From the NCBI RefSeq assembly GCF_013170845.1, contig NZ_CP033367.1:4775001-4839000 (forward strand): a stretch of DNA of 64,000 bases, given 5' to 3'. Below the pieces are notes generated by a model. That model was not told the origin of the DNA. It saw nothing but the letters and a program-made list of their open reading frames with translations, and did no database searches. Shown piece by piece: positions 6,246 to 24,025 of the stretch. Source of the DNA: Mesorhizobium loti R88b (GTDB taxonomy: Bacteria; Pseudomonadota; Alphaproteobacteria; Rhizobiales; Rhizobiaceae). The stretch's first letter is position 1. The number at the start of each line of letters is the position of its first letter. A program made the translations under genes and the position numbers.

Positions 6246-6295
6246 GCGACACTTTTCCTAGGAAAGCCGTTTCACACTTTCCTGGAATTGCTCTT
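6246..6295. repeat. Partial copy of the GCAATTCC/GGAATTGC palindromic repeat
   Basis: The right half (CACACTTTCCTGGAATTGC, arm GGAATTGC at 6284-6291) matches the repeats at 24602-24668 and 36835-36878. The left arm is degenerate. It sits between the stop of the 62-aa gene and the end of the convergent lysozyme gene. Confidence 0.6.
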
Positions 6296-6298
6296 GGC

Positions 6299-7369
6299 CT
6301 AATCCACGTCAGCCATCATCTGCCGGCCACCGCCGCCGGCCCAGACGCGCCATTGCTGCTCATCGCCATGGAAGACGTTGAGATCGATGCGGCCGGTGAC
6401 GCCATGCGACAGGCCGGAGCCGGAATATTGCCAGAACAGCCATTTGCGGTCGGGATAGACCTTTGACGGATGCCGCGCCACCGCGCGCACCCAGAAGGGG
6501 TAATCCATGAAGGCGCCCTGGAGATTGTCGCGGTAGAAGTCAGGCGATGTGTAGATAATGGGCCGCTGGCCGTAGTGACGCTCCAGCCTGTCCATGAACA
6601 CCTGCATCTTCTCCAGCACCTTTTCGCGTGATGGGCGCCGCGTGCAGGAGGAGTCGCCGTTCCACTCGACATCGATCACCGGCGGCAGCGCGCCGTCGAC
6701 CTTCGGCACGTTGCGGATGAACCAGTCGGCCTGCTCGCTGGCGACTCGGCACCAATAGAAGAAATGGTAAGCGCCGCGCTTCAACCCGGCGGCGTCGGCA
6801 TTACGCCAGTTTTTCATGAACATCGGGTCGAGATGGTCGCCGCCATCGGTTGCCTTTATGTAAGCGAAGTTGGCGCCTTGGGCGCGCAGCTTCCCCCAGT
6901 TGACGTCGCCTTGCCAGCGCGACACGTCGACACCGTGGACGGCGAGATGCCTGGGTGAGGCTTTGCCGAAATTGATCGGCTTGGCGTCGCGAAAGCCGTA
7001 ACGCATGATCGACCCGGCAAACATGGGCGGCGAATTGCGGCTCAACAGCTTCGACGTCGAGACCAGCGCGGCCGCCCCGACCGGCGGCTCGGCACTGTCG
7101 GACGGTTCAGGTGTCGCGAGCATCACCGTTTCTTCTTCCGCCAGGCCAAAAGGTCGAGCAGGCTCATCCACGGGCGCTGCCTCGGCCCGCTTGCGTGCCT
7201 TGGCCTTGGCTACAGGGACCGATGCGATCGGCGCGCTTGGCCGCACCACCGAGCTGGTGGTCTCGTTCGACGGCTTTTGCACGTCAAGCGCGTCCATGCC
7301 CGATGTCGACGAACAGCCGGCAAGGCACAATGATGCGATCATGAAACTGACGACGCCTGGTAACCGCAT
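6299..7369 (-). CDS. GH25-family lysozyme, lipoprotein
   Basis: The start MRLPGVVSFMIASLCLAGC carries a lipobox (LAGC, Cys19), so it is a predicted lipoprotein. A low-complexity Pro/Ala/Ser-rich linker (about residues 25-135) leads to a GH25 muramidase domain: HGVDVSRWQGDVNW (Asp148), FAYIKATDGG, GAYHFFYW, PPVIDVEWNGD (Asp233 and Glu235, the catalytic DxE) and WQYSGSG near the end. GH25 enzymes cleave the MurNAc-GlcNAc bond of peptidoglycan. Membrane anchoring suggests a role in the organism's own wall turnover. A Cys pair (YWCR, SSCTR) may form a disulfide. Confidence 0.92.
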   Translation of the reverse strand: MRLPGVVSFMIASLCLAGCSSTSGMDALDVQKPSNETTSSVVRPSAPIASVPVAKAKARKRAEAAPVDEPARPFGLAEEETVMLATPEPSDSAEPPVGAAALVSTSKLLSRNSPPMFAGSIMRYGFRDAKPINFGKASPRHLAVHGVDVSRWQGDVNWGKLRAQGANFAYIKATDGGDHLDPMFMKNWRNADAAGLKRGAYHFFYWCRVASEQADWFIRNVPKVDGALPPVIDVEWNGDSSCTRRPSREKVLEKMQVFMDRLERHYGQRPIIYTSPDFYRDNLQGAFMDYPFWVRAVARHPSKVYPDRKWLFWQYSGSGLSHGVTGRIDLNVFHGDEQQWRVWAGGGGRQMMADVD

Positions 7370-7600
7370 CTGGACCTGTACTCAGAACACAACAGACCGA
7401 AGGCGACGGGCCGACGGACAACCAGCCCAGTTATGAACGAGAAATTACCAATAAAGTTTGAATCAAGTTTTTTACCATAGCTGTGGCTCGTTTAAGACAT
7501 CCGCCGCCAACGTCCGGCCAAGCCTTGACAGCGCCATGATGTGGCTGTTGAGACAATCTGCGGCCACCGACATTTTCCGCGATTTCCGAAAAGGCGCCCA

Positions 7601-8557
7601 ATGACTGCGTTGCAGCGGCTTCTCCTCATCCCCCTGCTCGCCGCCTTCTCCTGGAGCGGGACGGCGCAAGCCAGCGGGCTGGTCGTCGTTCCCCCCGGCA
7701 ATCGCTCGCAGACACAGCCGACGATCCCGGATGCATCGGCGACGCGAACCCGCGCGTTCAAGACCACCTACGCGGAGAAATACGAGAAGATCATTGCGCT
7801 CTTGAAGCGCGAGAAGAAACTGGTGGCGCATATCAAGCAGGTCGCCGCGGCTTACGATATCGATCCCATCCACATCGTCGGCGCGCTGGTCGGCGAACAT
7901 ACCTACAATGTGACAGCCGTCGGCTCGGTGCAGACCTATTATGTGAAGGCGCTGTCCTATTCCGGTCTCGATTTCTCCTTCCGCTACAAGGGCGTGCCGG
8001 TGCAGACCTTTGTCCAGCGGCCTGAATTCGCCGCCTGCGCGCAGGCCGGGGACAGTTCTGCCCTGTGGAGCTGCCGCGACCGGGTCTGGGTCGAGCATTT
8101 TCGTGGCAAGACGGTCGACGGCGTCACCTATGAAGCCCAGACCTTCCAGCAGGCGTTCTTCCAGCCCTTCTTCGCCGGCCAGACCTTCGGCCTCGGCCAG
8201 ATCAGCCCGTTGACCGCGCTCGAGGTCACCGACCTGGTCAACAGGGTGAGCGGCTACGACAAGCTGACACCGGATCATCCGCAGGCGATCTATCGTGACG
8301 TCATGGATCCGGACCGCAGCATCGTCTACATCGCCGCGATCGTGCGCGACGCCATCGACGCCTACAAGGAACAGGGCTTCGACATTTCAGGCAATCCGGG
8401 GATCACGGCCACGCTCTACAATGTCGGCCAGCCCCGGCAGCGGGCGGCAGCCCTCGCCAACGGCAAGGGCCGCAAGCTGCCGGTCGAGAATTATTACGGC
8501 TGGCTCGTCAACGACAAGCTCGACGACCTCAGAAGCCTGCTCGACAGCGGCAGCTGA
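7601..8557 (+). CDS. DUF1402 family secreted protein
   Basis: Start at the ATG of MTALQRLLLIPLLAAF, giving a signal peptide cleaved near TAQA-SG; the frame 60 bp upstream only adds a polar leader. The mature protein (about 290 aa) has AYDIDPIHIVGALVGEHTYN, a GLGQISPLTALEV segment and TLYNVGQPRQRAA. The Glu in GEHTYN followed by GLGQIS and TLYNVG resembles the active-site order of soluble lytic transglycosylases (Glu, GxxQ, Tyr-Asn), so a wall-active enzyme is plausible, though DUF1402 has no proven activity that I know of. Found mainly in Rhizobiales. DedA follows after 25 bp, probably cotranscribed. Confidence 0.85.
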   Translation: MTALQRLLLIPLLAAFSWSGTAQASGLVVVPPGNRSQTQPTIPDASATRTRAFKTTYAEKYEKIIALLKREKKLVAHIKQVAAAYDIDPIHIVGALVGEHTYNVTAVGSVQTYYVKALSYSGLDFSFRYKGVPVQTFVQRPEFAACAQAGDSSALWSCRDRVWVEHFRGKTVDGVTYEAQTFQQAFFQPFFAGQTFGLGQISPLTALEVTDLVNRVSGYDKLTPDHPQAIYRDVMDPDRSIVYIAAIVRDAIDAYKEQGFDISGNPGITATLYNVGQPRQRAAALANGKGRKLPVENYYGWLVNDKLDDLRSLLDSGS

Positions 8558-8582
8558 GAAACGCCTTTTATCAGGAGCCTGC

Positions 8583-9212
8583 GTGCAGTCGTTCATCGAC
8601 CAGAGCGTTTGTTTCATCGAGAACCATCAGGCCTGGGCCGGCCTCGTGGTCGGGCTGCTGGCATTCGGCGAGTCGCTTGTGCTGGTCGGCATCCTCTTGC
8701 CCGGCACCACAGTGCTCATCATCGTCGGCGGCCTGGTGGGGGCCGGCATCGTGCAGCCTTTGCCAGTCCTTCTGGCGGCGATGATCGGGGCAGCACTCGG
8801 CGACACCATCTCCTATTTTCTCGGCAGATGGCTGGGCCGTGGTGTCGTTCACAAATGGCCGCTCAACCGTTACCGCCGCGAGGTCGCCAGGGCGCGGCTG
8901 TTCTTCCACCGTTACGGTTTTTGGGCCGTTTTCATCGGCCGCTTCTTCGGCCCGGTCCGTGCCACCGTGCCGCTGGTCGCGGGCATGATGGGCATGCACC
9001 GGCGCCGCTTCCAGATCGCCAACATCCTGTCGGCGATCATCTGGGCCCCGGTCGTGCTGTCGCCTGGGTGGTTGGTGGCCAAGGGCGCCGGCAGCTTCCC
9101 GGAGCTCGATGTGACCAGCCTGTTTGGGATAGCGGCGATGGCCTCAATCGCCTTGATCATCATAGCGGTGATCGCTTTTAGGCTGCGGGGCAAGCGAACG
9201 TCCCGAGCCTAA
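8583..9212 (+). CDS. DedA family membrane protein (GTG start)
   Basis: No ATG fits; GTG at 8583 has AGGAG upstream (AGGAGCCTGC GTG). The protein has the DedA/SNARE-associated hallmarks: FGESLVLVGILLPGTTVLIIVGGLVG near residues 25-50, GAALGDTISYFLGRWLG, and the FIGRFFGPVRATVPLVAGMMGM motif. Four or more membrane segments follow the family pattern, and length (209 aa) is normal. DedA proteins include undecaprenyl-phosphate or other lipid flippases. The stop codon lies inside the left arm of the repeat at 9209. Confidence 0.92.
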   Translation: MQSFIDQSVCFIENHQAWAGLVVGLLAFGESLVLVGILLPGTTVLIIVGGLVGAGIVQPLPVLLAAMIGAALGDTISYFLGRWLGRGVVHKWPLNRYRREVARARLFFHRYGFWAVFIGRFFGPVRATVPLVAGMMGMHRRRFQIANILSAIIWAPVVLSPGWLVAKGAGSFPELDVTSLFGIAAMASIALIIIAVIAFRLRGKRTSRA

Positions 9213-11999: not shown

Positions 12000-12020
12000 A
12001 AAACCGGCCCAAGCGGCCGG
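12000..12020 (-). terminator. Intrinsic terminator for the 64-aa gene
   Basis: Read on the minus strand: CCGGCC, 5-nt loop GCTTG, GGCCGG, then TTTT (12003-12000). It lies 34 bp after the stop of the gene at 12054-12251. The stem is short but all G-C. Confidence 0.55.
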
Positions 12021-12053
12021 CCTGTGTCCTCATGGGGAAAAACGGCAAAGCGA

Positions 12054-12251
12054 TTACGGGCACAGCCAGAGTTTCTGGCAAGTCCTGGCAATCACATGCG
12101 CCGGCGGAACGACAGGTTCTTCGGCCGAAGGGCGGCGCGCCCGTTCGAGCAGCATGCGTACCTGTTCGGGGCGCACGCGATCGCGCTCCATGACAAGCAG
12201 AACCATCGGATCGCTCAAGAGCTCGTCCAGGGTGCTGATGCTGTGGTCCAT
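12054..12251 (-). CDS. Conserved small hypothetical protein (65 aa)
   Basis: ATG 12251 has AGGAG eight bases upstream. The protein begins MDHSISTLDELLSDPMVLLVMERDRV and continues RPEQVRMLLERARR, a helical, amphipathic small protein. I recall proteins with this LDELLSDP-VMERDRV pattern in Mesorhizobium, but with no function assigned. Longer frame starts upstream add an Arg-rich leader without support. The terminator at 12000-12020 follows. Confidence 0.65.
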   Translation of the reverse strand: MDHSISTLDELLSDPMVLLVMERDRVRPEQVRMLLERARRPSAEEPVVPPAHVIARTCQKLWLCP

Positions 12252-12400
12252 CCGTCGTCTCCTCGAATGCCGGCCCGCGCTGCATAGATAGGAAGACAAT
12301 GATGGCCCGCCAATGACGATTTGCCGGCTATCGCGTGGTGATTTGGATTAAATTTTGGTCATGGTCGCGCATGTCCTTCTCCTCCAGCAGAAGGACAGAC

Positions 12401-12799
12401 CTAGCCCGGCGGCGGTCCGGCCTCATACTGTGGCAGCCCGTCATCGAGCACCACCCAAGGCTGCCTTGAGGCTGTGAAAATGTGCATCTGTGGCCTGAAG
12501 AGCGTGGGATCGTCGAGCGAACCAGTTGTGACGCCGATGATGCCTGCGGAATCACGACGCGAAAACATCGTCGTGCCGCAGCTTGGGCAAAAACCGCGCT
12601 TGAGATCGGGCGAAGTGTTCACCGTCGCCAGCGGCCCTTCGATCGTCACCTCGTCGATGCGAAACAGCACGCGCGCGTTGAAGGCGGCGCCGATCGCCTT
12701 CTGGCAAAGCCGGCAGTGGCAGATGCGCTCGTTGATGGGATCGACGTCAGCGCGATAGCGAACCGCCCCACACAAACATCCGCCCTGATATCTTGCCAT
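12401..12799 (-). CDS. GFA family (Mss4-like zinc) protein
   Basis: Start at the ATG of MARYQGGCLCGAVRY; the longer frame adds 29 unconserved residues. All GFA zinc ligands are visible: Cys8 and Cys10 (GGCLCGAV), Cys27, Cys29 and Cys32 (ICHCRLCQK), and Cys71 and Cys74 (GFCPSCGT). The fold binds zinc and was first named for glutathione-dependent formaldehyde activation; most members, including this one, have no proven substrate. Length 132 aa is standard. Divergent from the oxygenase gene at 12916. Confidence 0.9.
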   Translation of the reverse strand: MARYQGGCLCGAVRYRADVDPINERICHCRLCQKAIGAAFNARVLFRIDEVTIEGPLATVNTSPDLKRGFCPSCGTTMFSRRDSAGIIGVTTGSLDDPTLFRPQMHIFTASRQPWVVLDDGLPQYEAGPPPG

Positions 12800-12915
12800 G
12801 GCCTTGATCCAGAAATCGAGAGAATAGGCGTCAAGGTTAGTCGCGCGACCGACAGGGTCAATTGAAAAGCTTAGATACAAAGCCATCGATAACCGTGATG
12901 CGGGTGAGGCTCGTC

Positions 12916-13944
12916 ATGACGCAAGACATCGAAACCATCGGCATCGCGGATCTGTTCGGGCCGCCCTCGGCCGCCCGCGACCGCGCTGACGCCAGGATCA
13001 TGGCCGCTGCCTCCGGAATAGGCTTCATGGCGGTTCGCGATTTTCCTGGCGATGCCTGGCTGACGCCGGACAGAAGAGCGCAATTGCTGCGCATCTTTGC
13101 TCTTCCCGGCAGCGAGAAGCAGAAATTGCTGCGCTGGAATTTCGACCAGACGAACAAGAACGTCTATCGCGGCTGGTTCCCGCTGCAGCCGACAGCCGTT
13201 TCCTACAAGGAAGGCATCGACATGGGGCCGGACCTCGCCGATACAGCAGGGGTTTCGGCATCCGACGATCCGCTGTGCGAGACGACGCCATTACCAGCCG
13301 AAGAGACCTTGCCCGGTTGGCGCGCGGCCGCGGCGGACTACTACCGCGCGATGGGGACGGTCGGCAACGCGCTGATGCGGTCGATCGCGCGCGGGCTTGG
13401 CCTGCCGGAAACGATCTTCGATCCGTATTTCGAGGATGGCATCTCGACACTGCGCCTGATCCGCTATCCCTTGCGCGACGCCACTGCCGGTGTTGACACC
13501 AGCGGGCCTGAGTTCTCGGTGGTTCACAAGGGCGAGAAACGCACCGTCATCGGCCGCGAGCATGCCGATTCCGGTTTCGTCACCTTGCTGGCGCAGGACG
13601 GCGTCGAGGGCTTGCAGGCAAAAACCCTCGCCGGCGAATGGATCGACGTGCCGCCGGCCAATGGCACGCTGGCGGTCAATTTCGGCCAATTGCTGGAGCG
13701 CTGGACCGGTGGGCGCGTCCGGGCGACGCGACACCGGGTGATTGCGCCGAAGACGGCGCGGTTCTCGATCCCGTTCTTCTATGAACCGCGTGTCGACGCC
13801 GAGATCGCGCCCTTGCCGTTGAGCGGCACCGAACCTTTCCTGCCGTTTCTCTATGGCGACTATCTCTGGGAATCGGCGACGAACTTCGTCGAGATGAGCG
13901 GCATCAAGCATTTGCGTGAGCCACGCCGCGCCAGGGCTTCCTGA
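12916..13944 (+). CDS. 2-oxoglutarate/Fe(II) oxygenase, isopenicillin-N-synthase-like
   Basis: Iron ligands are visible: His216 and Asp218 in REHADSGFVTLL and His273 in RATRHRV, with the 2-oxoglutarate-binding ARFSIPFF (Arg282, Ser284). The N-terminal DIOX_N domain (about residues 5-120) has GFMAVRDF and the YRGWFPLQ stretch common to this family. The ATG at 12916 follows GGTGAGG; upstream starts at 12862 and 12898 are less supported. Length 342 aa is typical. Substrate is unknown; homologues include ethylene-forming-like and various hydroxylating enzymes. Confidence 0.87.
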   Translation: MTQDIETIGIADLFGPPSAARDRADARIMAAASGIGFMAVRDFPGDAWLTPDRRAQLLRIFALPGSEKQKLLRWNFDQTNKNVYRGWFPLQPTAVSYKEGIDMGPDLADTAGVSASDDPLCETTPLPAEETLPGWRAAAADYYRAMGTVGNALMRSIARGLGLPETIFDPYFEDGISTLRLIRYPLRDATAGVDTSGPEFSVVHKGEKRTVIGREHADSGFVTLLAQDGVEGLQAKTLAGEWIDVPPANGTLAVNFGQLLERWTGGRVRATRHRVIAPKTARFSIPFFYEPRVDAEIAPLPLSGTEPFLPFLYGDYLWESATNFVEMSGIKHLREPRRARAS

Positions 13945-13977
13945 GCCTGGCGCGGTTGTCGTGGAGGCAGCCCTGTA

Positions 13978-14463
13978 TCAGAGCGTCCTGGCGAGTTCCT
14001 CGAGTTGGTCGGTGCACTGGCCCCAGCCGACGTGAAAACCCATCGCCTCGTGCTGTTCGCGGCCGGCGACACTCCAGTGCCGGACGCGTGCGGTGTAGAG
14101 GGTCTTGCCCTCGCCTTCGTCCTCGAAGGTCAGCACGCCGGTCATGAACGGCTTTTCCGATGGCTCCCAGGCCTTTGTATAGGCATCGGTGAAGACGATC
14201 TTCTTGCCGGGAATGACTTCCAGGAAGACGCCGGGGTTGGGAAACTCATTGCCGTCAGGGCCAGCCATGATGACCAGGCTCGAGCCGCCCGTGCGCACGT
14301 CCATCTCGGCGCGTGGTGTCGTCCACGGCTTTGGTGCGAACCATTGCGTGATCAGTTTCGGGTCGCTCCAGCAACGATAGACGTTCTCGCGCGGCGCATC
14401 GATGATGCGGGCAACAACCAGTTCACGGTCATTGGCGGGGGCGATGTCGAGCTTTGTGGTCAC
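13978..14463 (-). CDS. SRPBCC / AHSA1-type domain protein
   Basis: The sequence has the classic AHSA1 pattern: RIIDAPRENVYRCWSDPKLITQWFAP near residues 19-44, a strand-rich middle, and HEAMGFHVGWGQCTDQLEELA at the end. This fold makes a hydrophobic ligand cavity; many members sit with ArsR-type regulators, but none is present here. Length 161 aa fits. GGAGA precedes the start. Ligand unknown. Confidence 0.9.
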   Translation of the reverse strand: MTTKLDIAPANDRELVVARIIDAPRENVYRCWSDPKLITQWFAPKPWTTPRAEMDVRTGGSSLVIMAGPDGNEFPNPGVFLEVIPGKKIVFTDAYTKAWEPSEKPFMTGVLTFEDEGEGKTLYTARVRHWSVAGREQHEAMGFHVGWGQCTDQLEELARTL

Positions 14464-14596
14464 GGAGGTCTCCTCAGGTTTGATCTTGGCTTCCGTGCCG
14501 AGGACGAGCAGATCAAACGCAAGCCGACACTTTCAGCGAAAAATTCTGGCAGTGAAAAATTCTGGAACCGCCCGCATTGCGACAAGGCGGGCAGAG

Positions 14597-14845
14597 TCAG
14601 TGGCGCTTGGCTTGCACCAGATAGGCGTCGATTTCGGTCTCGCCGAGCCACCTTGCCGCCTCCAGCCGATGCAGGCCTTCGACGAGGACATGACGCTTGC
14701 CGTCGTGGCGGACCTGGATCGGCGTCTTCATGCCATTCTCGAGAATGTCCTCGGCGAGACTGCGCACGGTCTCTGGGTGCAGCGTCTTCTTGCGCGCCGT
14801 CGGCACGTAGATATCGTCGAGCTTGACCTTTTGCACTCTGAGCAT
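14597..14845 (-). CDS. ParB/Srx-type N-terminal domain protein, stand-alone (82 aa)
   Basis: The ATG at 14845 has GGGAG upstream; a start at 14908 is possible but unsupported. The domain contains VKLDDIYVP, TVRSLAEDILENGMKTPIQVR and HVLVEGLHRLEAARWLGETEIDA, the ParB/sulfiredoxin-like fold with its G-hydrophobic-HR box (VEGLHRLEAA). Canonical ParB has GxxRxxA for CTP binding; here it is GLHRLEA, which matches. There is no HTH or C-terminal domain, so this is not the chromosome-partition ParB. It may be a stand-alone nucleotide-binding or regulatory module. Confidence 0.78.
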   Translation of the reverse strand: MLRVQKVKLDDIYVPTARKKTLHPETVRSLAEDILENGMKTPIQVRHDGKRHVLVEGLHRLEAARWLGETEIDAYLVQAKRH

Positions 14846-15000
14846 ACTGGCTCCCGAGGCGGAAAATACCGCCTTGCCTGAGATAGTCGCTTTGCCGGGT
14901 GCGGCCAAGAGCGGCTAAGCAAATGCTGGCCCGATCGTTTCCATTTGACGCTTGGTGGGCAGATGGCCGAAATGGCGGCCTTCGATCCTTTCCGGTGTTC

Positions 15001-16644
15001 ATGACCCATCTGCCTACCGAATTCCCCGATTTCGGGTTGACGCCCGAGCAGCGCCGCCACGCGGTGCGCGGCCACTATTACGAATGGCCAGGCATGGATG
15101 GCGAGCGCGGCGAGATCTGGTGCTACAGCGACCGCTTTTCCTATCGCGCCGGGGAGACGGTAATGCTGCATGTCAGCTCGACCGCCCCAGCCTTCAACAT
15201 GGCGATCGTTCGTGACGGCGGCACCGAGACGAAAGTGTTCGAGATATCAGGCATCGCGGCGGTCTGGCAGGACACTTCAGACCAATGTTCCGCCGAGGGT
15301 TGCGGCTGGGAAGTCGCGTTCGAATTCCGTGTCGGCAACGACTGGCCGTCCGGTGCCTATCGGATAACGCTGACTGCCGCTGGCCATGACGGCAAACAGA
15401 TCCAATCCCATCATCTCTTCATCGTCAGCCCCCGGCCCGGCAAGAAGCCCGGCCGCGTGCTGCAGGTGGCGGCGACGGGCACCTGGCTTGCCTACAACAC
15501 CTGGGGTGGCTCGAACCACTACCAAGGCATTACCGGGCCTGACCGCAACCAGTACTCGCCTATTGTGTCGACGCAGCGCCCTTGGTGCCGTGGCTTCGTC
15601 GTGCTGCCCAAGGATGCGCCGCGCGTGCCGCTGGAAGTGGCCGTCCCGCCGAAGACAATACCGCGCTATCCCCACATGGAGTGGGCGCTGGCTACCGGAC
15701 ATTCGAAGAAATACGCCTCATCGGGCTGGGCGAGCTATGACAGTCATATGTTCCGCTTCGCCGAGCGGGCCGGCTATGACATCGACCTAGTGAGCCAGCA
15801 CGATCTGCATTTTTCGCCTGACATTCTCGACGGTTACGATTGCGCGGTCTTCGTCGGCCATGACGAGTACTGGACCTGGGAAATGCGCGACGCGGTCGAC
15901 ACCTATGTCGAGCGCGGCGGCCATGCGGCGCGCTTTGCCGGCAATTTTATGTGGCAGACACGGCTGGAAGACGAGGGCCGCCGGCAGGTCTGCTATAAAT
16001 ACCGCGCGCGCGCCGAGGACCCAGCCTATCTCGGTGGCAGCGACGTTACCCGTGCCACAAATTCCTGGGAAGCGCCGGAAATCGGCCGACCGGGTTCGGC
16101 GACCTTCGGGCTCAACGCGACACGCGGGGTGTATGCCGGTTGGGGCGGCTGCGCGCCGCGCGGCGTGCGCGGTTTCCCGGTCTACCGGCCCGAACACTGG
16201 GCCTTTGCCGGCACCGGCATCTATTATGGTGACCTGCTCGGCGCCGACAGCCATGTTTATGGTTATGAGGTCGATGGGCTCGACTTCGAGATCCGCGGCG
16301 GCCTGCCCTACCCCACATCAGACAGCGGCGCGCCGGATGGCTTGCAGGTTCTCGCGGTCGGCATGGCCAGCCAGGTTGAGGAAAGCGCCGACATCCCGAT
16401 CGAGGACCAGTTCCTCACCGACGAGGATGGCCGCTTCACCGCCGAAACCCTGTTTGGCGAAGCGAGCGACGCCAATCTCGAAAAGGTCAAACGCGGCAAT
16501 GGCATGATCGTCAATTTCCCGCGTGGCAAGGGTGAGGTGTTCCACGCCGGAAGCTGCGAATGGGTGGCCGGCCTGCTGAGACAAGACCCGATGGTCGAAC
16601 GCGTTACCCGCAATGTCCTTGATCGCTACCTTGGAAAGTCCTGA
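15001..16644 (+). CDS. N,N-dimethylformamidase large-subunit-like protein
   Basis: Start at MTHLPTEFPDFGLTP; the frame opens earlier but that part overlaps the ParB-like gene region. The N-terminal half has a beta-sandwich look (GEIWCYSDRFSYRAGETVMLHVSS). The C-terminal half has the segments typical of the dimethylformamidase beta-subunit-like family: TWLAYNTWGGSNHYQG, VGHDEYWTWEMRDAVDTYV, RGGHAARFAGNFMWQ and GKGEVFHAGSCEWV. The true DMFase splits formamides with an iron site and needs a small alpha subunit, which is not visible here. It is the first of six tightly packed genes, which suggests amide hydrolysis as the entry step. Substrate unknown. Confidence 0.8.
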   Translation: MTHLPTEFPDFGLTPEQRRHAVRGHYYEWPGMDGERGEIWCYSDRFSYRAGETVMLHVSSTAPAFNMAIVRDGGTETKVFEISGIAAVWQDTSDQCSAEGCGWEVAFEFRVGNDWPSGAYRITLTAAGHDGKQIQSHHLFIVSPRPGKKPGRVLQVAATGTWLAYNTWGGSNHYQGITGPDRNQYSPIVSTQRPWCRGFVVLPKDAPRVPLEVAVPPKTIPRYPHMEWALATGHSKKYASSGWASYDSHMFRFAERAGYDIDLVSQHDLHFSPDILDGYDCAVFVGHDEYWTWEMRDAVDTYVERGGHAARFAGNFMWQTRLEDEGRRQVCYKYRARAEDPAYLGGSDVTRATNSWEAPEIGRPGSATFGLNATRGVYAGWGGCAPRGVRGFPVYRPEHWAFAGTGIYYGDLLGADSHVYGYEVDGLDFEIRGGLPYPTSDSGAPDGLQVLAVGMASQVEESADIPIEDQFLTDEDGRFTAETLFGEASDANLEKVKRGNGMIVNFPRGKGEVFHAGSCEWVAGLLRQDPMVERVTRNVLDRYLGKS

Positions 16645-16645
16645 C

Positions 16646-18031
16646 ATGTCGAAGACCCAGACCGCCGCTCAAGACACCGAGGCCCGGCGAGAATCGCATC
16701 TGTTCTATCTGTCCAGCCTGCGCCGGCCGCTGATCGACCGTGCCGAAGGCATTTACATGTGGACCCAGGATGGCAGGCGTTTCATCGATGGCTCGAGCGG
16801 GCCGATGGTCGCCAATATCGGCCATTCCAACCGCAATGTGCTCGATGCCATGAAGCGGCAAATGGACCGCGCCACCTTCGCCTACCGGCTGCATTTCGAG
16901 AACGAGCCGGCGGAAGAACTGGCGCGTGAGCTGGCCGGCAAGCTGCCGGAGGGCATGGATCGCATCTTCTTCGTCTCTGGCGGCTCGGAGGCGACGGAAT
17001 CCTGCATCAAGCTGGCGCGGCAATGGGCTGTCGCCACCGACCAGGCTAGCCGCTGGAAGGTGATCACGCGTTTCCCCTCCTATCATGGCGGTACGCTGGG
17101 TTCGCTGTCGATCACCGGCGACGACGCTCTGGCCGAAACCTTCGAGCCGATGATGCGGGTGATGCCGACCGTGCCGGCACCGACCGCCTGGCGCGACCGC
17201 GACAATCTTTCGATGGAGCAGCGTGGCGTCCGCTATGCCGACATGCTGGAAGACAAGATCCTCGCCGAAGGTCCGGAGAGCGTCGTTGCCTTCATCATGG
17301 AGCCAATCGGCGGTGCGGCGACAGCGGCTCTGGTGGCGCCAGACAGCTACTATGCGCGCATCCGCGAAATCTGCGACCGCTACGGCATCCTGCTGATCCA
17401 CGACGAAGTGATGAGCGGCGCCGGTCGCACCGGCAAATTCCTCGGCGGCGACCACTGGAACTGCAAACCCGACATCGTCGCGCTGTCGAAGGGGCTGGGC
17501 TCGGGCTACGCGCCGCTTGGCGCGCTGGCGGCGCCCATGCGGCTGGTGCAGCCGCTGCTCGCTTCCGGCGGTTTCCAGCACGGCCACACCTATGCTGGCA
17601 ATCCGCTGGCCTGTGCTGCCGGCCTTGCCGTGCTGGGCGAAATGGACCGGCTCGACCTGATCGCCAATGCGGCTGCGATGGGCGACGTGCTGATGGAGGG
17701 ACTGAAAGCGCTGGCCAAGCGCTTTCCCTTCATCGCCGACGTGCGCGGCAAGGGCCTGCTCACCGGCGCCGAGATGGTTGCCGATCCCGAGACGCTGCGT
17801 CCGATCGACCAAAACAAAAAAGCCACGCAGCGGCTGCTCGACCTCGCTTATGAGCGTGGTCTGATCATCTATGGCCGCAGGGTCAAGGGTGGCGTCGAAG
17901 GCGACAATTTCATGGTCGCGCCGCCGATGATCGTCACATCAGAACAGGTCGGCGAGATCATCTCCATCATCGGTGACTCGCTGGAGGTGCTGGCCGCCGA
18001 GCTCGACCTGCCAGTCGAAGGCCAGGGCTAA
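16646..18031 (+). CDS. Class III pyridoxal-phosphate aminotransferase
   Basis: Fold type I landmarks are clear: SGGSEATESCIKLAR (about residues 111-125), SYHGGTLGSLS, IMEPIGG, LLIHDEVMSGAGRTGKF (Asp253) and PDIVALSKGLGSGYAPLGA with the PLP lysine at Lys282. Class III enzymes of this type transfer amino groups from omega-amino acids or polyamines to pyruvate or 2-oxoglutarate. GGAAAG precedes the ATG, and the gene starts one base after the stop of its upstream neighbour. Length 461 aa is normal. Confidence 0.92.
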   Translation: MSKTQTAAQDTEARRESHLFYLSSLRRPLIDRAEGIYMWTQDGRRFIDGSSGPMVANIGHSNRNVLDAMKRQMDRATFAYRLHFENEPAEELARELAGKLPEGMDRIFFVSGGSEATESCIKLARQWAVATDQASRWKVITRFPSYHGGTLGSLSITGDDALAETFEPMMRVMPTVPAPTAWRDRDNLSMEQRGVRYADMLEDKILAEGPESVVAFIMEPIGGAATAALVAPDSYYARIREICDRYGILLIHDEVMSGAGRTGKFLGGDHWNCKPDIVALSKGLGSGYAPLGALAAPMRLVQPLLASGGFQHGHTYAGNPLACAAGLAVLGEMDRLDLIANAAAMGDVLMEGLKALAKRFPFIADVRGKGLLTGAEMVADPETLRPIDQNKKATQRLLDLAYERGLIIYGRRVKGGVEGDNFMVAPPMIVTSEQVGEIISIIGDSLEVLAAELDLPVEGQG

Positions 18032-18035
18032 AAAG

Positions 18036-18965
18036 ATGGCGCCGCGAAAAGTCATCGTCACCTGCGCCGTCACCGGCTCTGTGCATACACCGTCGATGTC
18101 GCCCTATCTGCCTGTGACGCCGGACCAGATCGCGGCCGATGCGATCGCGGCGGCGGAAGCCGGCGCCTCGATCCTGCATCTGCACGCCCGCGACCCCAGG
18201 GACGGACGGCCGACCGCCGATCCGGACGTGTTCATGCAATTCCTGCCGCGCATCAAGCAGGCGACCGATGCGGTGATCAACATCACCACCGGCGGGTCGT
18301 CGCTGATGACCCTGGACCAGCGACTGGCGGCACCCTTGCGCGCCGAGCCCGAAATGTGCTCGCTCAACATGGGTTCGATGAATTTCGCCCTGTTCCCGAT
18401 GCTCGACAAGCCGCGCGAATGGCAGCACGAGTGGGAGCCGAAGCTGCTCGAAGCCACCCGCGACACCATTTTCAAGAACACCTTCGCCGACATGGAAAGC
18501 GTTCTCGAAAGGCTGGGCAAAGGCTGCGGCACACGCTTCGAATTCGAGTGCTACGATGTCGGCCATCTCTATTCGCTGGCGCATTTCCGCGACCGGGGCC
18601 TGGTGTCGGGGCCGCTGTTCATCCAGTTCGTGCTGGGTATTCTCGGCGGCATCGGCGCCGATCCGGACAATCTCATCCATATGAAGCGGATCGCCGACAA
18701 GCTGTTCGGCGACAGCTACCAGTTCTCGGTGCTGGCCGCCGGCCGCCAGCAGATGCCGCTGATCTCGATCGCCGCGGCGATGGGTGGCAATGTCCGTGTC
18801 GGCCTGGAAGACAGTCTCTACGATGGCCGTCAGCTGGCGAAATCCAACGCCGACCAGGTGCGCCGCATCCGTGGCATTCTCGACGGGTTGTCGCTGGAGG
18901 TTGCAACGCCGGCCGAGGCGCGCGAAATGCTGGCGCTGAAAGGTGGCGATCGGGTCGCTTTCTAG
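18036..18965 (+). CDS. BKACE (beta-keto acid cleavage enzyme, DUF849)
   Basis: The zinc-binding motif HLHARDP (His48, His50) sits at the end of the second strand, and INITTGGSSLMTLDQRL follows at about residues 85-102, both typical of this TIM-barrel family. Other family segments are FECYDVGHLYSLAHF, IQFVLGILGGIGA and MGGNVRVGLEDSLY. BKACE enzymes condense a beta-keto acid with acetyl-CoA and release acetoacetate, as 3-keto-5-aminohexanoate cleavage enzyme does in lysine fermentation. Coming 4 bp after the aminotransferase, it likely acts on an amino-keto acid from the same pathway. Length 309 aa. Confidence 0.92.
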   Translation: MAPRKVIVTCAVTGSVHTPSMSPYLPVTPDQIAADAIAAAEAGASILHLHARDPRDGRPTADPDVFMQFLPRIKQATDAVINITTGGSSLMTLDQRLAAPLRAEPEMCSLNMGSMNFALFPMLDKPREWQHEWEPKLLEATRDTIFKNTFADMESVLERLGKGCGTRFEFECYDVGHLYSLAHFRDRGLVSGPLFIQFVLGILGGIGADPDNLIHMKRIADKLFGDSYQFSVLAAGRQQMPLISIAAAMGGNVRVGLEDSLYDGRQLAKSNADQVRRIRGILDGLSLEVATPAEAREMLALKGGDRVAF

Positions 18966-18984
18966 GGGCCAGGGAGGAGCTGAC

Positions 18985-19488
18985 ATGGAAAGGGTTCTCG
19001 TCTCCGCCTGCCTGCTCGGCAGTCACGTCCGCTACAACGGCTCCTACCGGCTCAACAACCATCCGGTCCTGATGCGCTGGCAAGCGGAAGGGCGGGTCGT
19101 GCAACTCTGCCCTGAGGTTGCCGCGGGTTTCTCCACGCCGCGTCCCGCTGCAGAAATTCACGGCTCAGCCGATGCTGTGCTTCGCGGCCAGGGTCGAGTG
19201 ATCGAGCAGACGGGAAATGATGTGACCGCACTTTATCTCGAAGCCGGGCAAATTGCGCTCGACCTCGCCCGAGAAACGGGATGTCGCTACGCGGTTCTTA
19301 CCGACGGCAGTCCGTCCTGCGGCAGCAGCTTCGTTTATGACGGCAGCTTTTCAAGCAGGCGCGTAGCCGGTCGCGGCACGACCACCGCTCTGCTGGAAGC
19401 CAATGGCATTCGGGTCTTTTCGGAAGACAGTATCGGCGACCTTGACGATCTCCTAAAGAAGTCCGGTTCAGCCGAAACCGCGGCCTGA
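18985..19488 (+). CDS. DUF523 / TudS-like iron-sulfur desulfidase
   Basis: GGGAGGAGC precedes the ATG. Conserved DUF523 motifs are VSACLLGSHVRYNGSY (Cys9), VQLCPEVAAGFSTPR (Cys42) and LTDGSPSCGSSF (Cys112), with another Cys at 100. In TudS-type enzymes, three such cysteines hold a [4Fe-4S] cluster that removes sulfur from thiouracil-like compounds. Here it is the fourth gene of the operon; whether it processes a sulfur-containing substrate of this pathway or repairs thiolated bases is unknown. Length 167 aa fits. Confidence 0.88.
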   Translation: MERVLVSACLLGSHVRYNGSYRLNNHPVLMRWQAEGRVVQLCPEVAAGFSTPRPAAEIHGSADAVLRGQGRVIEQTGNDVTALYLEAGQIALDLARETGCRYAVLTDGSPSCGSSFVYDGSFSSRRVAGRGTTTALLEANGIRVFSEDSIGDLDDLLKKSGSAETAA

Positions 19489-19491
19489 TTC

Positions 19492-20019
19492 ATGTCAGAC
19501 AAGATCCAGCCCCCGACCAGCGACACCGTCATCCGCCCCGGCACCATCGACGACGCCGAGACCATCCACGCCGCGCTTCTCAAACTTGGCACCCATATCG
19601 GCGCGCATCAGGAGATCGTATCCACTGTTGACGATCTCCGCGCCTATGGCTTCGGCGAAAAGCCCGCCTTCTCTACCCTGATCGCCGAAGTCGGCGGCGA
19701 ATTCGCCGGCCTCTGCCTGCATTTCCCGATCTTCTCTACCTGGATGGGCCGGCCTGGGGTCTATGTGCAGGATCTCTATGTCGAGGACCGGTTTCGCGGC
19801 CGCAAGATCGGCGAGCGCCTGCTGCGGCGTGTCGCTGCGGAATGCCGGAAAGAGGGCGGCGTGTATCTGCGGCTGTCCGTCGACACCGACAATGAAGGCG
19901 CGAAGGCCTTTTATGAAAGGCTGGGCATTGCCTGGTCGAGTTACGAACAGACGCAGAAGATCATCGGCGAGGCCTTTTTCACCTTTGCCGACGCACCGGA
20001 AAATGGGGATCAGGAATGA
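19492..20019 (+). CDS. GNAT family N-acetyltransferase
   Basis: The acetyl-CoA-binding motif A is visible as VQDLYVEDRFRGRKIGERLL (about residues 92-111), followed by the helix RRVAAECRKEG and the strand-helix LSVDTDNEGAKAFYERLG typical of diamine-type GNATs. It resembles spermidine/spermine-type acetyltransferases in its IRPGTIDDAETI start. The gene starts 3 bp after the DUF523 stop and overlaps the next gene by 4 bp. Amine acetylation paired with the downstream deacetylase-like gene is a reasonable guess. Confidence 0.9.
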   Translation: MSDKIQPPTSDTVIRPGTIDDAETIHAALLKLGTHIGAHQEIVSTVDDLRAYGFGEKPAFSTLIAEVGGEFAGLCLHFPIFSTWMGRPGVYVQDLYVEDRFRGRKIGERLLRRVAAECRKEGGVYLRLSVDTDNEGAKAFYERLGIAWSSYEQTQKIIGEAFFTFADAPENGDQE

Positions 20020-21044
20020 AAGCCTTTTATGCGCAGGAGCAGAAGCGACACGACCCCAAGGCCTTTCTTTCGAGTGGTGCCGCTCAGCCCAATCCGGAAA
20101 AGCCGGAGCGCGTTGAGAGATTGTTAGCCGGCGCAAAATCTGCCGGCTGCACGACCGAACGGCCCCGGAATCACGGACTTGGACCGGTAGCGGCGGTCCA
20201 TACGCCGGAGTATCTCGACTTCCTCGAACACATCTTCGAACGCTGGCAGCGCATCGAAGGCGCGTCGGCGGAGGTGATCCCCAACATCCACCCGATCGCC
20301 CGCAACGGCTCTTATCCGGCCTCCGCCGTTGGCCAAGCTGGATATCACATGGCCGACACGGCCTGCCCGATCTCGGGCGAGACCTGGCAAAGCGCACTAT
20401 GGAGCGCCTGGAGTGCGGTCGAAGCCGCCGAAACGGTGATAGCTGGCGCGCCGGCCGCCTATGCGCTGTGCCGCCCGCCCGGCCACCACGCCTTTGCCGA
20501 CGTCGCCGGCGGCTTCTGCTTCATCAACAATTCGGCTGTCGCGGCGCAGGTGCTGCGCAAGCAGGCGGCGCGCGTCGCCATCCTCGATGTCGACCTGCAC
20601 CACGGCAATGGCACGCAAGGCATTTTCTATGCACGGCCTGACGTGCTCACTGTCTCGCTGCACGCCGATCCGGTGCGCTTTTACCCCTTCTTCTGGGGTC
20701 ATGCCGACGAACGCGGTGAAGGTCCGGGCCTCGGTTACAATTTCAACCTGCCCCTGCCGCGCAAATCCGCCGACGCGGCGTTTCTGGAGGCGCTCGAGGC
20801 GGCCCTCCAGCGCATCCGCGCCTTCTCGCCCGATGCGCTGGTCGTGGCGCTCGGCCTCGACGCCTTCGAGGGCGATCCGTTCGGCGGGCTTTCGGTGACG
20901 ACGCCAGGCTTCTCGCGCATCGGCGAGGCGATCGCCAAGCTTGGCCTGCCGACGGTCATCGTCCAGGAAGGCGGCTATCTCTGCGACGCGCTCGGCGACA
21001 ACCTTACCGCCTTCCTCACCGGATTCGGCGGCAAGGCGCGGTAA
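20016..21044 (+). CDS. Histone-deacetylase-family amidohydrolase (acetylpolyamine aminohydrolase-like)
   Basis: All catalytic residues of the zinc HDAC fold are present: His157 and His158 (RPPGHHAF), zinc ligands Asp193, His195 (ILDVDLHHGNGTQ) and Asp282 (GLDAFEGDP), and the transition-state Tyr321 (EGGY). Length 342 aa and the MKAFYAQEQKRHDP start match bacterial acetylpolyamine aminohydrolases, which release acetate from N-acetylated amines. It overlaps the GNAT stop by 4 bp (ATGA), the last gene of the operon. Confidence 0.92.
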   Translation: MKAFYAQEQKRHDPKAFLSSGAAQPNPEKPERVERLLAGAKSAGCTTERPRNHGLGPVAAVHTPEYLDFLEHIFERWQRIEGASAEVIPNIHPIARNGSYPASAVGQAGYHMADTACPISGETWQSALWSAWSAVEAAETVIAGAPAAYALCRPPGHHAFADVAGGFCFINNSAVAAQVLRKQAARVAILDVDLHHGNGTQGIFYARPDVLTVSLHADPVRFYPFFWGHADERGEGPGLGYNFNLPLPRKSADAAFLEALEAALQRIRAFSPDALVVALGLDAFEGDPFGGLSVTTPGFSRIGEAIAKLGLPTVIVQEGGYLCDALGDNLTAFLTGFGGKAR

Positions 21045-21060
21045 CAATTCAAGCTCCGCG

Positions 21061-22329
21061 TCAGGACCGCTGCTGCCTGAGCATGGCAATGACCCGATGT
21101 ACGCTTTCCAGCGTCTCGTCGATCTCAGCCATCGTATTGTAATGCGCGATGCCGATGCGCACGACGCCTTGTTCGGCCGGAATACCGAGCTGGTGGACAA
21201 TCTCCCAGGCGTAGTTGTGGCCGGACCACAGGAAGATGTTTTCGCTATTCATCTGCCGCACGATCGTTTCCGGCACGATGCCTTCAACGGTAAAGGAGAC
21301 CGTCGGCACACGATCGACGAGCAGGTTCGGATCGGTGATGCCATGGATGGTCAGGCCCGAAATGTCGGACAGGCCGTCGATCAGCCTTTGCGCCAACGGG
21401 TTTTCATAGGCGATGGACACTTCGAACGCCTTGGCAATCTTCTGCCTGCGCGAACCGCCCTCGCCTGCCGCAGCGCCAAGGTCAGCAAAATAGTCGACCG
21501 CCGCCGTCAGGCCGGCCATGAGTTCGATCTGCGGCGTGCCGAGTTCGAACCGCTCCGGCAGGCCATTGGACGAACAACGACATTTGTAGGGCTTCAGGCC
21601 TTCGACAACGTCACGCCGCCCCCACAAAATGCCCATATGCGGCCCGAAAAACTTGTAGGCCGAGCAAATGAGGAAATCGCAGCCGAGATCGCTGACGTCG
21701 ATCAGGCCATGCGGCGCGAACTGGACGGCATCGACATAGACTAGCGCGCCGGCCTGTTTTGCAATGGCAGTCAGGGACTTAACCCGGTTGATCGAACCGG
21801 TCAGGTTCGAGGCATAATTCAACGCGACCAGCCGTGTCTTGTCACACAAGAGATCAGCCAGCGTCGCCTCTTCGACCTGCCAGCTCTTTTCATCGAATGG
21901 CAGCCAGCGCACGACGAGGCCGAGGTCCTCGGCCAGTTGCAGCCAGGGCGAGACATTGCCCTCATGGTCCATGCGGGTGAGGATGATCTCGTCACCGGGT
22001 TTGAAGCCGCGGCCAAGCGTGCGCGACATGTGATAGGTCAGCGTCGTCATGTTGGCGCCGATGATGATCTCTTTGGGGCTCGCCGCACCGAGGAAATCAG
22101 CCATCGCCTGGTGCGCGTCGTCGACGACAGCTTGAGCGGCGATCGTCGTTTCGAAATAGCCGCCGAGATTGGCATTGGTGGTCAGCAGGCAGCGCGATAC
22201 CGCATCGGCCACCGCCTGCGGCACCTGCGTGCCGGCGGGGTTGTCGAGATAGATGCGCCGGCGCCCCTTGTCGGTCAGGGAAAGCGCCGGAAATTTTCCA
22301 CGCACGGCCTCGATTGGAAAGCCCACCAT
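21061..22329 (-). CDS. Cysteine-desulfurase-like class V aminotransferase
   Basis: ATG 22329 (MVGFPIEAVRGKFPAL) has GGAG upstream and is preferred over the 17-residue longer start. Features: IYLDNPAGTQVP, a PLP-ring Asp200 in VYVDAVQFAPHG, and the Schiff-base lysine Lys226 in ICSAYKFFGPHMG. The substrate loop region YKCRCSSNGLPERFELGT follows. This is the 'cysteine desulfurase-like protein' subfamily (about 420 aa), distinct from IscS and SufS, with no known biological partner. Transcribed just after the aldo/keto reductase gene (47 bp gap). Confidence 0.88.
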   Translation of the reverse strand: MVGFPIEAVRGKFPALSLTDKGRRRIYLDNPAGTQVPQAVADAVSRCLLTTNANLGGYFETTIAAQAVVDDAHQAMADFLGAASPKEIIIGANMTTLTYHMSRTLGRGFKPGDEIILTRMDHEGNVSPWLQLAEDLGLVVRWLPFDEKSWQVEEATLADLLCDKTRLVALNYASNLTGSINRVKSLTAIAKQAGALVYVDAVQFAPHGLIDVSDLGCDFLICSAYKFFGPHMGILWGRRDVVEGLKPYKCRCSSNGLPERFELGTPQIELMAGLTAAVDYFADLGAAAGEGGSRRQKIAKAFEVSIAYENPLAQRLIDGLSDISGLTIHGITDPNLLVDRVPTVSFTVEGIVPETIVRQMNSENIFLWSGHNYAWEIVHQLGIPAEQGVVRIGIAHYNTMAEIDETLESVHRVIAMLRQQRS

Positions 22330-22376
22330 TGTCTCCACCCCTCTGCTATTTCCGATAATTCCGTACCCCGCGCCAA

Positions 22377-23444
22377 TCAAGGACAGGGATTGCCGACCCG
22401 CTGATGGATTGCATCCACCGCCTTCTGCATCTCTTCGGTCCAGACGACATCCACCGACGACAGCGCCATTTCGAGCTGCGGAATGGTTGTCGCGCCGATG
22501 ATATTCGAGGTGACGAAGGGCCGGCTCGATACATAGGCATTGGCAAACAGCGCCGGCTCCAGGCCAAAGGAGCGTGCCAGTTCATTGTATTCGAGCTGCG
22601 CTTCAGCTGCATTGAGCGTCTCATAACGCTGACCTCGATTGAACAACTGCGAGCGTGACCCCTGCGGGCGCGCGCCATGGTCGTATTTGCCGGTCAAATA
22701 GCCCTGCGCCAGCGGCGAATAGGGCAGCAACGAAACCTGCTCGCGCTCGCAGACCTCGGCGAGGTTCACCTCGAAGGTGCGGTTGACGAGGTTGTAGGCG
22801 TTCTGGATCGAAGCGACGCGCGGGCCGATCCCTTTGTCGGCCTCGGCAAGGAACCGCATGACGCCCCAGGAGCTTTCGTTCGATAGGCCGAAATGGCGGA
22901 TTTTTCCCGCCTTTACCAGTTCCTCGAACACTGCAAGCGTTTCGGCGATCGGCGTTTCGTCCGTCGGAGCGCCTACTGCATCGGCGCGCCGCGCTACAGC
23001 GCCGACACGTGTCGGATTGGCACCCCAGGGGATGTCCCGTTCCGGCCAGTGGATCTGATAGAGATCGAGATAGTCGGTGCCGAGCTTGGCCAGCGATTTG
23101 TCGATGGCGTCAAAAATATCGGCGCGCACCAGTTGCGAAGGCCTGTCGCCGCGAAACCAGGTGTTGGCGGTGCGGCCGACGACCTTGGAGGCAAGGATCA
23201 CCTTGTCGCGGTTGCCCTTGGCCTTCATCCATCTGCCGATGATCTTTTCGGTCCGCCCTTGCGTCTCTGCCTTGGGCGGGATCGGGTAGAGTTCAGCGGT
23301 GTCGATGAAATTGACGCCGCGCGAAAAGGCCAGGTCCATCTGGGCGTGCCCCTCTGCCTCGGTGTTCTGCTGGCCCCAGGTCATCGAACCCAGGCAGATC
23401 TGGGTAACAAGAAGATCGGTCCGACCAAGACGGCGTTTGTGCAT
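22377..23444 (-). CDS. Aldo/keto reductase (Tas-like)
   Basis: The start is the ATG of MHKRRLGRTDLLVTQ. The catalytic tetrad is visible: Asp48 and Tyr53 (NFIDTAELYP), Lys87 (ILASKVVG) and His132 (LYQIHWPER). NADPH-binding segments LLPYSPLAQGYLTGKY and TSNIIGATTIPQLEMAL are present. The pattern with WGQQNTEAEGHAQMD matches the Tas/YajO-like AKR group. Substrate unknown. Likely cotranscribed with the downstream cysteine-desulfurase-like gene. Confidence 0.92.
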   Translation of the reverse strand: MHKRRLGRTDLLVTQICLGSMTWGQQNTEAEGHAQMDLAFSRGVNFIDTAELYPIPPKAETQGRTEKIIGRWMKAKGNRDKVILASKVVGRTANTWFRGDRPSQLVRADIFDAIDKSLAKLGTDYLDLYQIHWPERDIPWGANPTRVGAVARRADAVGAPTDETPIAETLAVFEELVKAGKIRHFGLSNESSWGVMRFLAEADKGIGPRVASIQNAYNLVNRTFEVNLAEVCEREQVSLLPYSPLAQGYLTGKYDHGARPQGSRSQLFNRGQRYETLNAAEAQLEYNELARSFGLEPALFANAYVSSRPFVTSNIIGATTIPQLEMALSSVDVVWTEEMQKAVDAIHQRVGNPCP

Positions 23445-23563
23445 GGAATTCAGCTCCGGAGAGATAGGCTGGCGCGGTCGCGCGGGAGGAAGCCGCATCT
23501 ATAGGGAAAGCAGCGGCGCTCTCCAAGCCTCGCCAGGCCGACTTTTGCGTGAACCAGCGGTGT

Positions 23564-24025
23564 TTAGCGGCGAACGCCGGCCACGGCGCGGCGCTTGGCC
23601 TCGTCGATCAGCATGTTGGCGATCTGCATGCGGATCATGGCGCGCTGGCGCAGATGCGGGGCGACGCGGTCGGGATGATTTGCGAAGGCAAAGCTGCGGC
23701 GCATGCGGCTGAAATCGGCAACCTGCTTGGACTGATCGAGGCCGAGTTCGGCTGCGATCGAGTCAGGATCGATCGGTGGCAGTTTCTCCTCGGGCTTCGG
23801 CACTTCGCCCGCCAGAGCCAGCTTGGCGTGGTCGAGCAAGGCTGCGAATTCGCTCGCCAGATCGGTACCTGCCTCGCGATACTCGGCGGCGGATACCTTG
23901 ATGCGCCCGGAATGAAGCTCGTCGGCGACCGAGAGATAGTCGAACGGAATGGACGGACGCGCACCCGTCTCGTCGCCCTCGATGCCGTCGACCTTGTCGG
24001 AGGCAACAAAGAGGTCGTCGAGCAA
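23564..24025 (-). CDS. J-domain-like protein with HPD motif; start uncertain (possible ATC at 24058)
   Basis: The C-terminal third (RMRRSFAFANHPDRVAPHLRQRAMIRMQIANML) contains the HPD tripeptide and following helix of a J-domain, so it may be a DnaK co-chaperone-like protein. The N-terminal part is helical with no recognised domain. No ATG or GTG exists between the upstream in-frame stop and the conserved part. TTG 24025 has no ribosome site, while a strong GGGGGAGG (24064-24071) lies 5 nt before an ATC codon at 24058-24056, which would give 11 more residues beginning (M)ATSAKRDFAS. The coordinates given use the TTG. Confidence 0.72.
   Translation of the reverse strand: MLDDLFVASDKVDGIEGDETGARPSIPFDYLSVADELHSGRIKVSAAEYREAGTDLASEFAALLDHAKLALAGEVPKPEEKLPPIDPDSIAAELGLDQSKQVADFSRMRRSFAFANHPDRVAPHLRQRAMIRMQIANMLIDEAKRRAVAGVRR

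Follow-up and report, generated by a model that had tools for sequence, protein, structure and literature searches.

A six-gene operon of Mesorhizobium loti R88b as a candidate version of aerobic beta-lysine-type catabolism with exchangeable parts

Aerobic degradation of beta-lysine was reportedly described from enzyme work in a Pseudomonas by Barker and colleagues in 1979-81, and is said to proceed by N6-acetylation, transamination to 3-keto-6-acetamidohexanoate, cleavage, and the action of a 4-acetamidobutyryl-CoA thioesterase/deacetylase to yield 4-aminobutyrate. To our knowledge, two of its activities, N6-acetyl-beta-lysine transaminase and 4-acetamidobutyryl-CoA deacetylase, are without sequences. 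Here, we report the analysis of a six-gene operon of Mesorhizobium loti R88b, contained in a 64-kb stretch (positions 4,775,001-4,839,000 of a 7.2-Mb single-contig genome; referred to below as the window), that we think is best described as a new version of aerobic beta-lysine-type catabolism with exchangeable parts.

A second system for comparison is the Bacillaceae kam-type operon. Bacillus velezensis and Cytobacillus spongiae carry the row aminotransferase-CoTA-CoTB-peptidase (M20)-ablB (putative beta-lysine N-acetyltransferase)-ablA (lysine 2,3-aminomutase). In excerpts of a survey of B. subtilis, kamA (BSU19690) and yodT (BSU19740) are both under SigE, YodT is treated as uncharacterised, and KamA forms beta-lysine from lysine in vitro (PMC6522883); part of a report on B. 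thuringiensis places the kam locus of that species under sigma54 control (PMC4428206).

All six genes of the M. loti operon lie on the + strand between window positions 15001 and 21044; successive gaps measure 1, 4, 19, and 3 bp, and the last two genes overlap by 4 bp (open reading frames and sequence). Called genes on either flank of the unit have the opposite orientation. An earlier reading of this DNA (the original prediction) had given the same layout and had named a family for each gene; both stood, with Pfam in agreement for all six. The sequences themselves show the gene content, the protein families, how far the row is conserved, which modules replace one another, and a tie to the Bacillaceae operon; every reaction set out below, the order of the reactions, and beta-lysine as the substrate are inferred. 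First, an amidohydrolase resembling the large subunit of N,N-dimethylformamidase (DMFase), here called DMFA (15001-16644; DMFA2_C, Pfam PF20254, 3.8e-69) and a candidate N-acyl-beta-amino-acid acylase, would hydrolyse an N-acyl or amide form to release beta-lysine or a close analogue, a beta-amino acid with a further, distal amine. A GNAT acetyltransferase (19492-20019; Acetyltransf_1 PF00583, 1.5e-15), the candidate omega-N-acetyltransferase of the diamino acid, would then acetylate the distal amine and so prevent later cyclisation of the keto acid. The class III transaminase (AT3; 16646-18031; Aminotran_3 PF00202, 5.2e-92), a candidate N6-acetyl-beta-lysine (beta-amino acid) transaminase, would convert the beta-amine to a beta-keto acid, which for beta-lysine would be 3-keto-6-acetamidohexanoate. 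Reaction with acetyl-CoA, catalysed by the candidate BKACE (18036-18965; Pfam BKACE, 4.8e-107), would split this into acetoacetate plus an acetamidoacyl-CoA, in this case 4-acetamidobutyryl-CoA. The acid would be freed by a thioesterase whose gene is linked in some relatives and unlinked or absent in the window strain, and an HDAC/acetylpolyamine amidohydrolase-type deacetylase (APAH; 20016-21044; Hist_deacetyl PF00850, 9.6e-77), the candidate omega-acetamido acid deacetylase, would strip the acetyl group to leave an omega-amino acid (4-aminobutyrate). The remaining gene encodes a DUF523/TudS-like protein (18985-19488; 2-thiour_desulf PF04463, 3.8e-39).

With moderate confidence, we take the operon to encode the downstream half of an aerobic pathway for beta-lysine-type catabolism, whose chemistry is fairly well supported. 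The route expected by the original prediction (amide cleavage, transamination, BKACE cleavage, and acetylation/deacetylation) is borne out as plausible at the level of sequence; its remark that it knew of no described pathway with this set was not upheld, as the six genes can be mapped to the reported steps of aerobic beta-lysine degradation and partly to the Bacillaceae kam-type operon. In openly licensed literature we found nothing on the six-gene set.

The evidence that carries this reading comes from the genes that surround the transaminase elsewhere. We tabulated 147 transaminase loci after removal of repeated transaminase sequences, defining route A as BKACE and/or APAH beside the transaminase and route B as a CoA transferase (CoTA) with an M20 deacylase; GNAT and thioesterase genes were sought with few query proteins, so that diverged copies may be missed. 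BKACE and/or APAH adjoined the transaminase at 121 loci (BKACE with deacetylase, 93; deacetylase only, 26; BKACE only, 2), the rest holding CoA transferase with M20 (16), M20 with BKACE (2), or none of the four markers (8, some of them, L098, L260, and L271, cut by contig ends). BKACE and CoA transferase never shared a locus (0/147), and a thiolase accompanied route B in 10 of its 16 loci. The Zavarzinia locus L269 forms a clean hybrid, AT3-BKACE-GNAT-M20, whose genes touch; at L243, the other locus with BKACE and M20, the M20 gene lies ~5 kb beyond the cluster. Because two different cutters, BKACE and the CoA-transferase route, adjoin one transaminase, a beta-keto acid intermediate is suggested. 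A creatininase-family gene (family assigned from a Pfam run on L187) occurred at 8/147 loci, all of route B and never with DMFA.

These replacements can also be read as a modular catabolic island for N-acylated beta-lysine-type soil compounds with a DMFase-family acylase as its entry enzyme, a possibility that we put forward tentatively. Acetyl-inactivated streptothricin-type antibiotics and the osmolyte N-acetyl-beta-lysine would be examples of its possible substrates, and several of its steps can be served by unrelated enzymes: a DMFase- or creatininase-type amidase, BKACE or CoA transferase plus thiolase, an HDAC-type or M20 deacetylase, and two transporter types.

The transaminase links the beta-lysine-type reading to the Bacillaceae operon. 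AT3 residues K282 and D253 were invariant in 21 aligned rows, and AT3 was the sole match in the host genome to PRK06917 at <=1e-90 (418 bits, under the cut-off of 535); two of 14 control genomes, those of B. subtilis and Deinobacterium, also gave a PRK06917 match, one of which exceeded the cut-off. A tree was built from 97 of the 147 loci, two Bacillaceae rows, and 20 host rows (one being the window's own), leaving out most rows >=86% identical to one of three transaminase queries, short rows, and rows with >3 stops; L187, L201, L202, L191, and L203 were also removed by the 86% identity filter. The Bacillaceae transaminases grouped with the AT3 family, apart from the 19 other host class III transaminases (SH-aLRT 97), and their best match among the 20 host class III transaminases was AT3 (295 versus 223 and 264 versus 199 bits). 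Their neighbours correspond to those of route B, with CoA transferases 43-53% and M20 proteins 32-34% identical to the route B proteins. The tree implies at least 2 route changes (the two mixed loci counted as route A). A lysine 2,3-aminomutase neighbour in Alphaproteobacteria was considered as well and was not found in the fetched neighbourhoods. As a separate observation, the actinobacterium Leucobacter chromiireducens (L274) has a cluster of the route B kind; its transaminase falls within those of Alphaproteobacteria, a placement that suggests horizontal transfer.

Within the genus, a DMFA-like match was present in 99/99 genomes and was near-full (best E <= 4.2e-297) in 96/99, the exceptions being G006, G012, and G096. 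We examined 38 hand-chosen genus neighbourhoods, two of which lacked a DMFA orthologue and two of which were cut by contig ends. In all 34 untruncated loci that remained, DMFA and the transaminase come first and APAH (34/34) last on one strand, with GNAT at 33/34, BKACE at 26/34, and DUF523 at 4/34. A complete set of six is not the usual arrangement. The original prediction was right about a conserved gene row; the outcome that it named as refuting, a set not kept together in relatives, did not occur for the core but did for DUF523 and in part for BKACE. The kept genus core is the DMFA-like gene, the class III transaminase, GNAT, and APAH, usually with BKACE. Among 199 family genomes, BKACE was matched in 100 (E <= 1e-100), the transaminase in 48, and the deacetylase in 50 (both E <= 1e-110), and in the order sample DMFA reached E <= 1e-60 in 18/249 genomes. 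Because DMFA is absent from 47/147 transaminase loci and its relatives in the order occur without the other five genes, we regard it as a joiner and not the core of the wider system; GNAT was found near 95/100 DMFA-bearing loci versus 17/47 others. DMFA relatives elsewhere in the order were rejected as pathway markers, as not one of the remaining five was present at the 11 loci L057-L067.

Two further loci bear DMFA-like genes in other company. In the genus, L075 (8846-12992) has a paralogous row of DMFA (46%), transaminase (39%), and BKACE (56%) in which neither GNAT nor APAH was matched; this row may serve a simpler beta-amino acid. On a Sinorhizobium medicae plasmid, L115 (6187-19020) is a further variant: its DMFA orthologue (75%) is accompanied by a transporter, CoA transferases, M20, thiolase, and GNAT, and a transaminase nearest to glutamate-semialdehyde-aminomutase models replaces AT3.

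Searched as a single sequence, DMFA had no match among solved structures at 0.001; its profile (A4) matched the Protein Data Bank (PDB) entries for dimethylformamidase (1.8e-21) and N-acetyl-(R)-beta-phenylalanine acylase (9.2e-19). DMFA residues Y165, H287, and E289, invariant in 31 rows, align to DMFase Y399, H519, and E521, with Y440 outside the alignment; in the part of the DMFase report that we draw on, Y399, Y440, and E521 are the iron ligands and H519 is essential (PMC7686228). Because the profile matches the acylase and Y165, E289, and H287 are aligned and invariant, we propose that DMFA could act as an N-acyl-beta-amino acid hydrolase at the entry step. A gene for the small DMFase subunit was not seen alongside, where gaps are <=19 bp and flanking genes run the other way; a profile search aimed at that subunit was not made.

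A cleavage enzyme for the beta-keto acid, as in the aerobic beta-lysine pathway, is present at family level as a BKACE over a curated cut-off. The cut-off in question belongs to NF053538, a subfamily named for 3,5-dioxohexanoate (523.9 bits; cut-off 430), and the protein falls under that of the Kce model (224.7 bits; cut-off 382). Its solved matches in the PDB are 3e49, 3e02, and, third best, 8rio. The last is BKACE15 of P. denitrificans, whose reported substrates include beta-ketohexanoate, 3,5-dioxohexanoate, and acids like them; malonate semialdehyde is also accepted in vitro, in a reaction called new-to-nature, and the physiological role is stated as unknown (PMC11961710); the substrate classes of the BKACE family, as given in part of a family report, include hydrophobic and non-charged polar ones (PMC4922564).

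The same chemistry might instead serve another substrate, such as 3,5-diaminohexanoate, beta-ornithine, hydroxy-beta-lysine, or a natural-product N-acyl beta-amino acid. The NCBIfam subfamily name and the tested BKACE relative both concern other beta-keto acids, KamA is neither nearby nor over its cut-off in the phylum sample, and the linked transporters differ in type. The nearest outgroup of the transaminase nevertheless sits in a lysine 2,3-aminomutase operon, and we consider a substrate of this kind possible but improbable.

For the beta-lysine-type reading, the second amine would be protected by an acetyl on/off pair made up of the GNAT and either an HDAC-type or an M20 deacetylase, which is also how the beta-lysine pathway of Barker's group reportedly works. 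The N-deacetylase of the aerobic beta-lysine pathway has a family-level counterpart in the HDAC/APAH-type enzyme, which matched PDB 3men (4.1e-105) and 9gkz (2.1e-88). No thioesterase gene is among the six genes of the window operon. Elsewhere, a 4HBT thioesterase occurred at 29/147 loci, all of route A and 0/16 of route B (queries from route A loci), and at L158 it comes right after the deacetylase, overlapping it by 4 bp; the CoA transferase could recycle CoA in the route B loci without a thioesterase. At L164 (10786-11994) and L165 (11013-12206), which we take to be the same contigs as L244 and L246, a ~400-amino-acid (aa) gene follows GNAT where APAH is missing, the L165 copy being a creatinase/prolidase-type M24 peptidase. 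It could be another deacetylase substitute or may be a mere neighbour; a 397-aa gene also follows APAH in L180.

Directly upstream of the operon, LysR, a family-3 solute-binding protein (SBP), two permeases, and an ATPase were found in 11/34 genus loci, including L078, where the ~4.6-kb block (4389-8844) also contains the 4HBT thioesterase. The original prediction of no regulator or transporter was correct for the window strain, in which the thioesterase, LysR, and polar-amino-acid-type ABC transporter genes are absent from the upstream junction (14909-15000), and does not extend to these 11 loci. The operons of Ensifer, Ochrobactrum, Nitratireductor, and Aliihoeflea have the same block ahead of them, which makes an ancestral origin and later loss from the window strain probable; the genome of that strain has as its best match to the L078-type binding protein one of 35% identity, with none >39%. 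Among the 147 loci, a polar-amino-acid-type transporter (family-3 binding protein) occurred at 46, its linked ATPase being nearest to the ectoine EhuA model (334.6 bits; cut-off 345.4), and an SBP_bac_8-type transporter, read as Pot-like, occurred at 12.

These Pot-like transporters, together with APAH being nearest to acetylpolyamine amidohydrolases among solved structures, would fit polyamine or omega-amino acid catabolism, in which the transaminase would act on a terminal amine (for example, beta-alanine to malonate semialdehyde), BKACE on malonate semialdehyde, and GNAT and APAH on acetylpolyamines. BKACE15 does accept malonate semialdehyde in vitro, but the excerpted report calls that reaction new-to-nature (PMC11961710); the replacement of BKACE by CoA transferase plus thiolase would fit a longer beta-keto acid, and the transaminase is linked to the Bacillaceae kam operon. 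We therefore regard the polyamine explanation as unlikely.

A sulfur-containing or thioamide compound, raised by the original prediction from the DUF523/TudS-like gene, is a highly improbable substrate and was rejected: the window protein matches TudS 6z92 (5.4e-33) and keeps its cysteine-bearing stretches, but DUF523 is in only 11/147 transaminase loci, the genus loci that lack it keep the remaining gene order, and in relatives its site is empty or holds a palindromic repeat. Among the gaps inspected between BKACE (or the transaminase) and GNAT, 20 of ~140-280 bp, at L079, L083, L084, L086, and 16 further loci, held this repeat (arms around CTCTGTCCTGCCGGACATCTCCCCC), complete or partial, at the DUF523 site. 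The position resembles a hot spot for insertions within the operon, and DUF523 is probably a sporadic insertion outside the core. Decay of DUF523 in loci without the gene was also considered, and no remnant was detected at E < 0.01 in genus-type loci.

Several results weigh against beta-lysine-type catabolism as the function of the operon. The window AT3 is only 37-38% identical to the two Bacillaceae aminotransferases, with a long-branch warning from the tree program on the transaminase tree. No lysine 2,3-aminomutase or AblB match was obtained in the fetched neighbourhoods besides the two Bacillaceae ones (L293, fetched as KamA-like, excepted), and no beta-lysine acetyltransferase (AblB-type) model was among the matches listed for the window GNAT. 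KamA was over its cut-off in 0/398 phylum genomes (1e-130 was reached in 2), so beta-lysine would have to come from outside; the best KamA match in the host genome (310.4 bits; cut-off 525.4) is far from the operon. The substrate must then be imported, which the transporters of relatives allow, and the window operon is without a linked transporter. GNAT was not found near the transaminase in 14/16 route B and 8/12 Pot-like loci, so the substrate of those loci may arrive already acetylated, and BKACE is missing at the 26 loci, among the 147, that have APAH as their only marker. In 11 order genomes outside the genus, none of the remaining five genes lies near the DMFA relatives (39-72% identity), one of these neighbourhoods, L062, running into the end of its contig. 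Independent events are few (2 changes for CoTA, 5 for DMFA), and no independent-pair sign test was significant (87 of 97 tree loci), so the module associations rest on content and not on statistics.

Outside the six genes, a convergent pair downstream (21061-23498), which we read as genes for a putative cysteine-desulfurase-like PLP enzyme and a putative aldo/keto reductase, adjoins the operon in most genus loci examined and is probably a genus-level neighbour outside the pathway. A promoter scan of the sigma-70 type gave one match, on the opposite strand (shuffles, 1.3), and a terminator scan gave 8 (shuffles, 5.0; standard deviation, 2.0), neither being decisive on a single transcript. An Rfam search of window positions 12000-24000 gave no match.

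If beta-lysine-type catabolism is the correct reading, the operon offers candidate genes for the two decades-old activities named at the outset, would suggest a physiological role for the BKACE subfamily, the acetylpolyamine amidohydrolase-type protein, and the DMFase-like branch, and would account for how rhizobia and marine roseobacters might feed on beta-lysine-type compounds.

Each known system shares a part of this set. With N,N-dimethylformamidase and N-acetyl-(R)-beta-phenylalanine acylase, DMFA shares the C-terminal domain and the aligned metal Tyr (one), essential His, and Glu; it differs in length (547 aa versus ~775 in the solved chains), with local similarity only, and, for dimethylformamidase, in that the window unit has no small-subunit gene. 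Kce of lysine fermentation is likewise a BKACE-family enzyme that, in part of the family report, cleaves a beta-keto acid from a beta-lysine derivative (PMC4922564); unlike the window BKACE, which lies below the Kce and above the dioxohexanoate cut-off, Kce is described in an excerpted report as binding a free 5-amino group through Glu14 (PMC10470551). The Bacillaceae kam-type operon has a related transaminase and combines acetylation/deacetylation with activation of the keto acid, and route B loci hold aminotransferase, CoTA, CoTB, and M20 of the same families, whereas the window has no aminomutase, has BKACE for CoA transferase and APAH for M20, has a GNAT not matched to AblB, and adds the DMFA-like gene.

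The Pseudomonas pathway reported by Barker is matched by a candidate gene in the window for every step except the thioesterase, which relatives supply at the loci counted above. That pathway was reportedly described from enzymes only; to it, the window would add genes, a BKACE cutter, an HDAC-type deacetylase, and a DMFase-type acylase.

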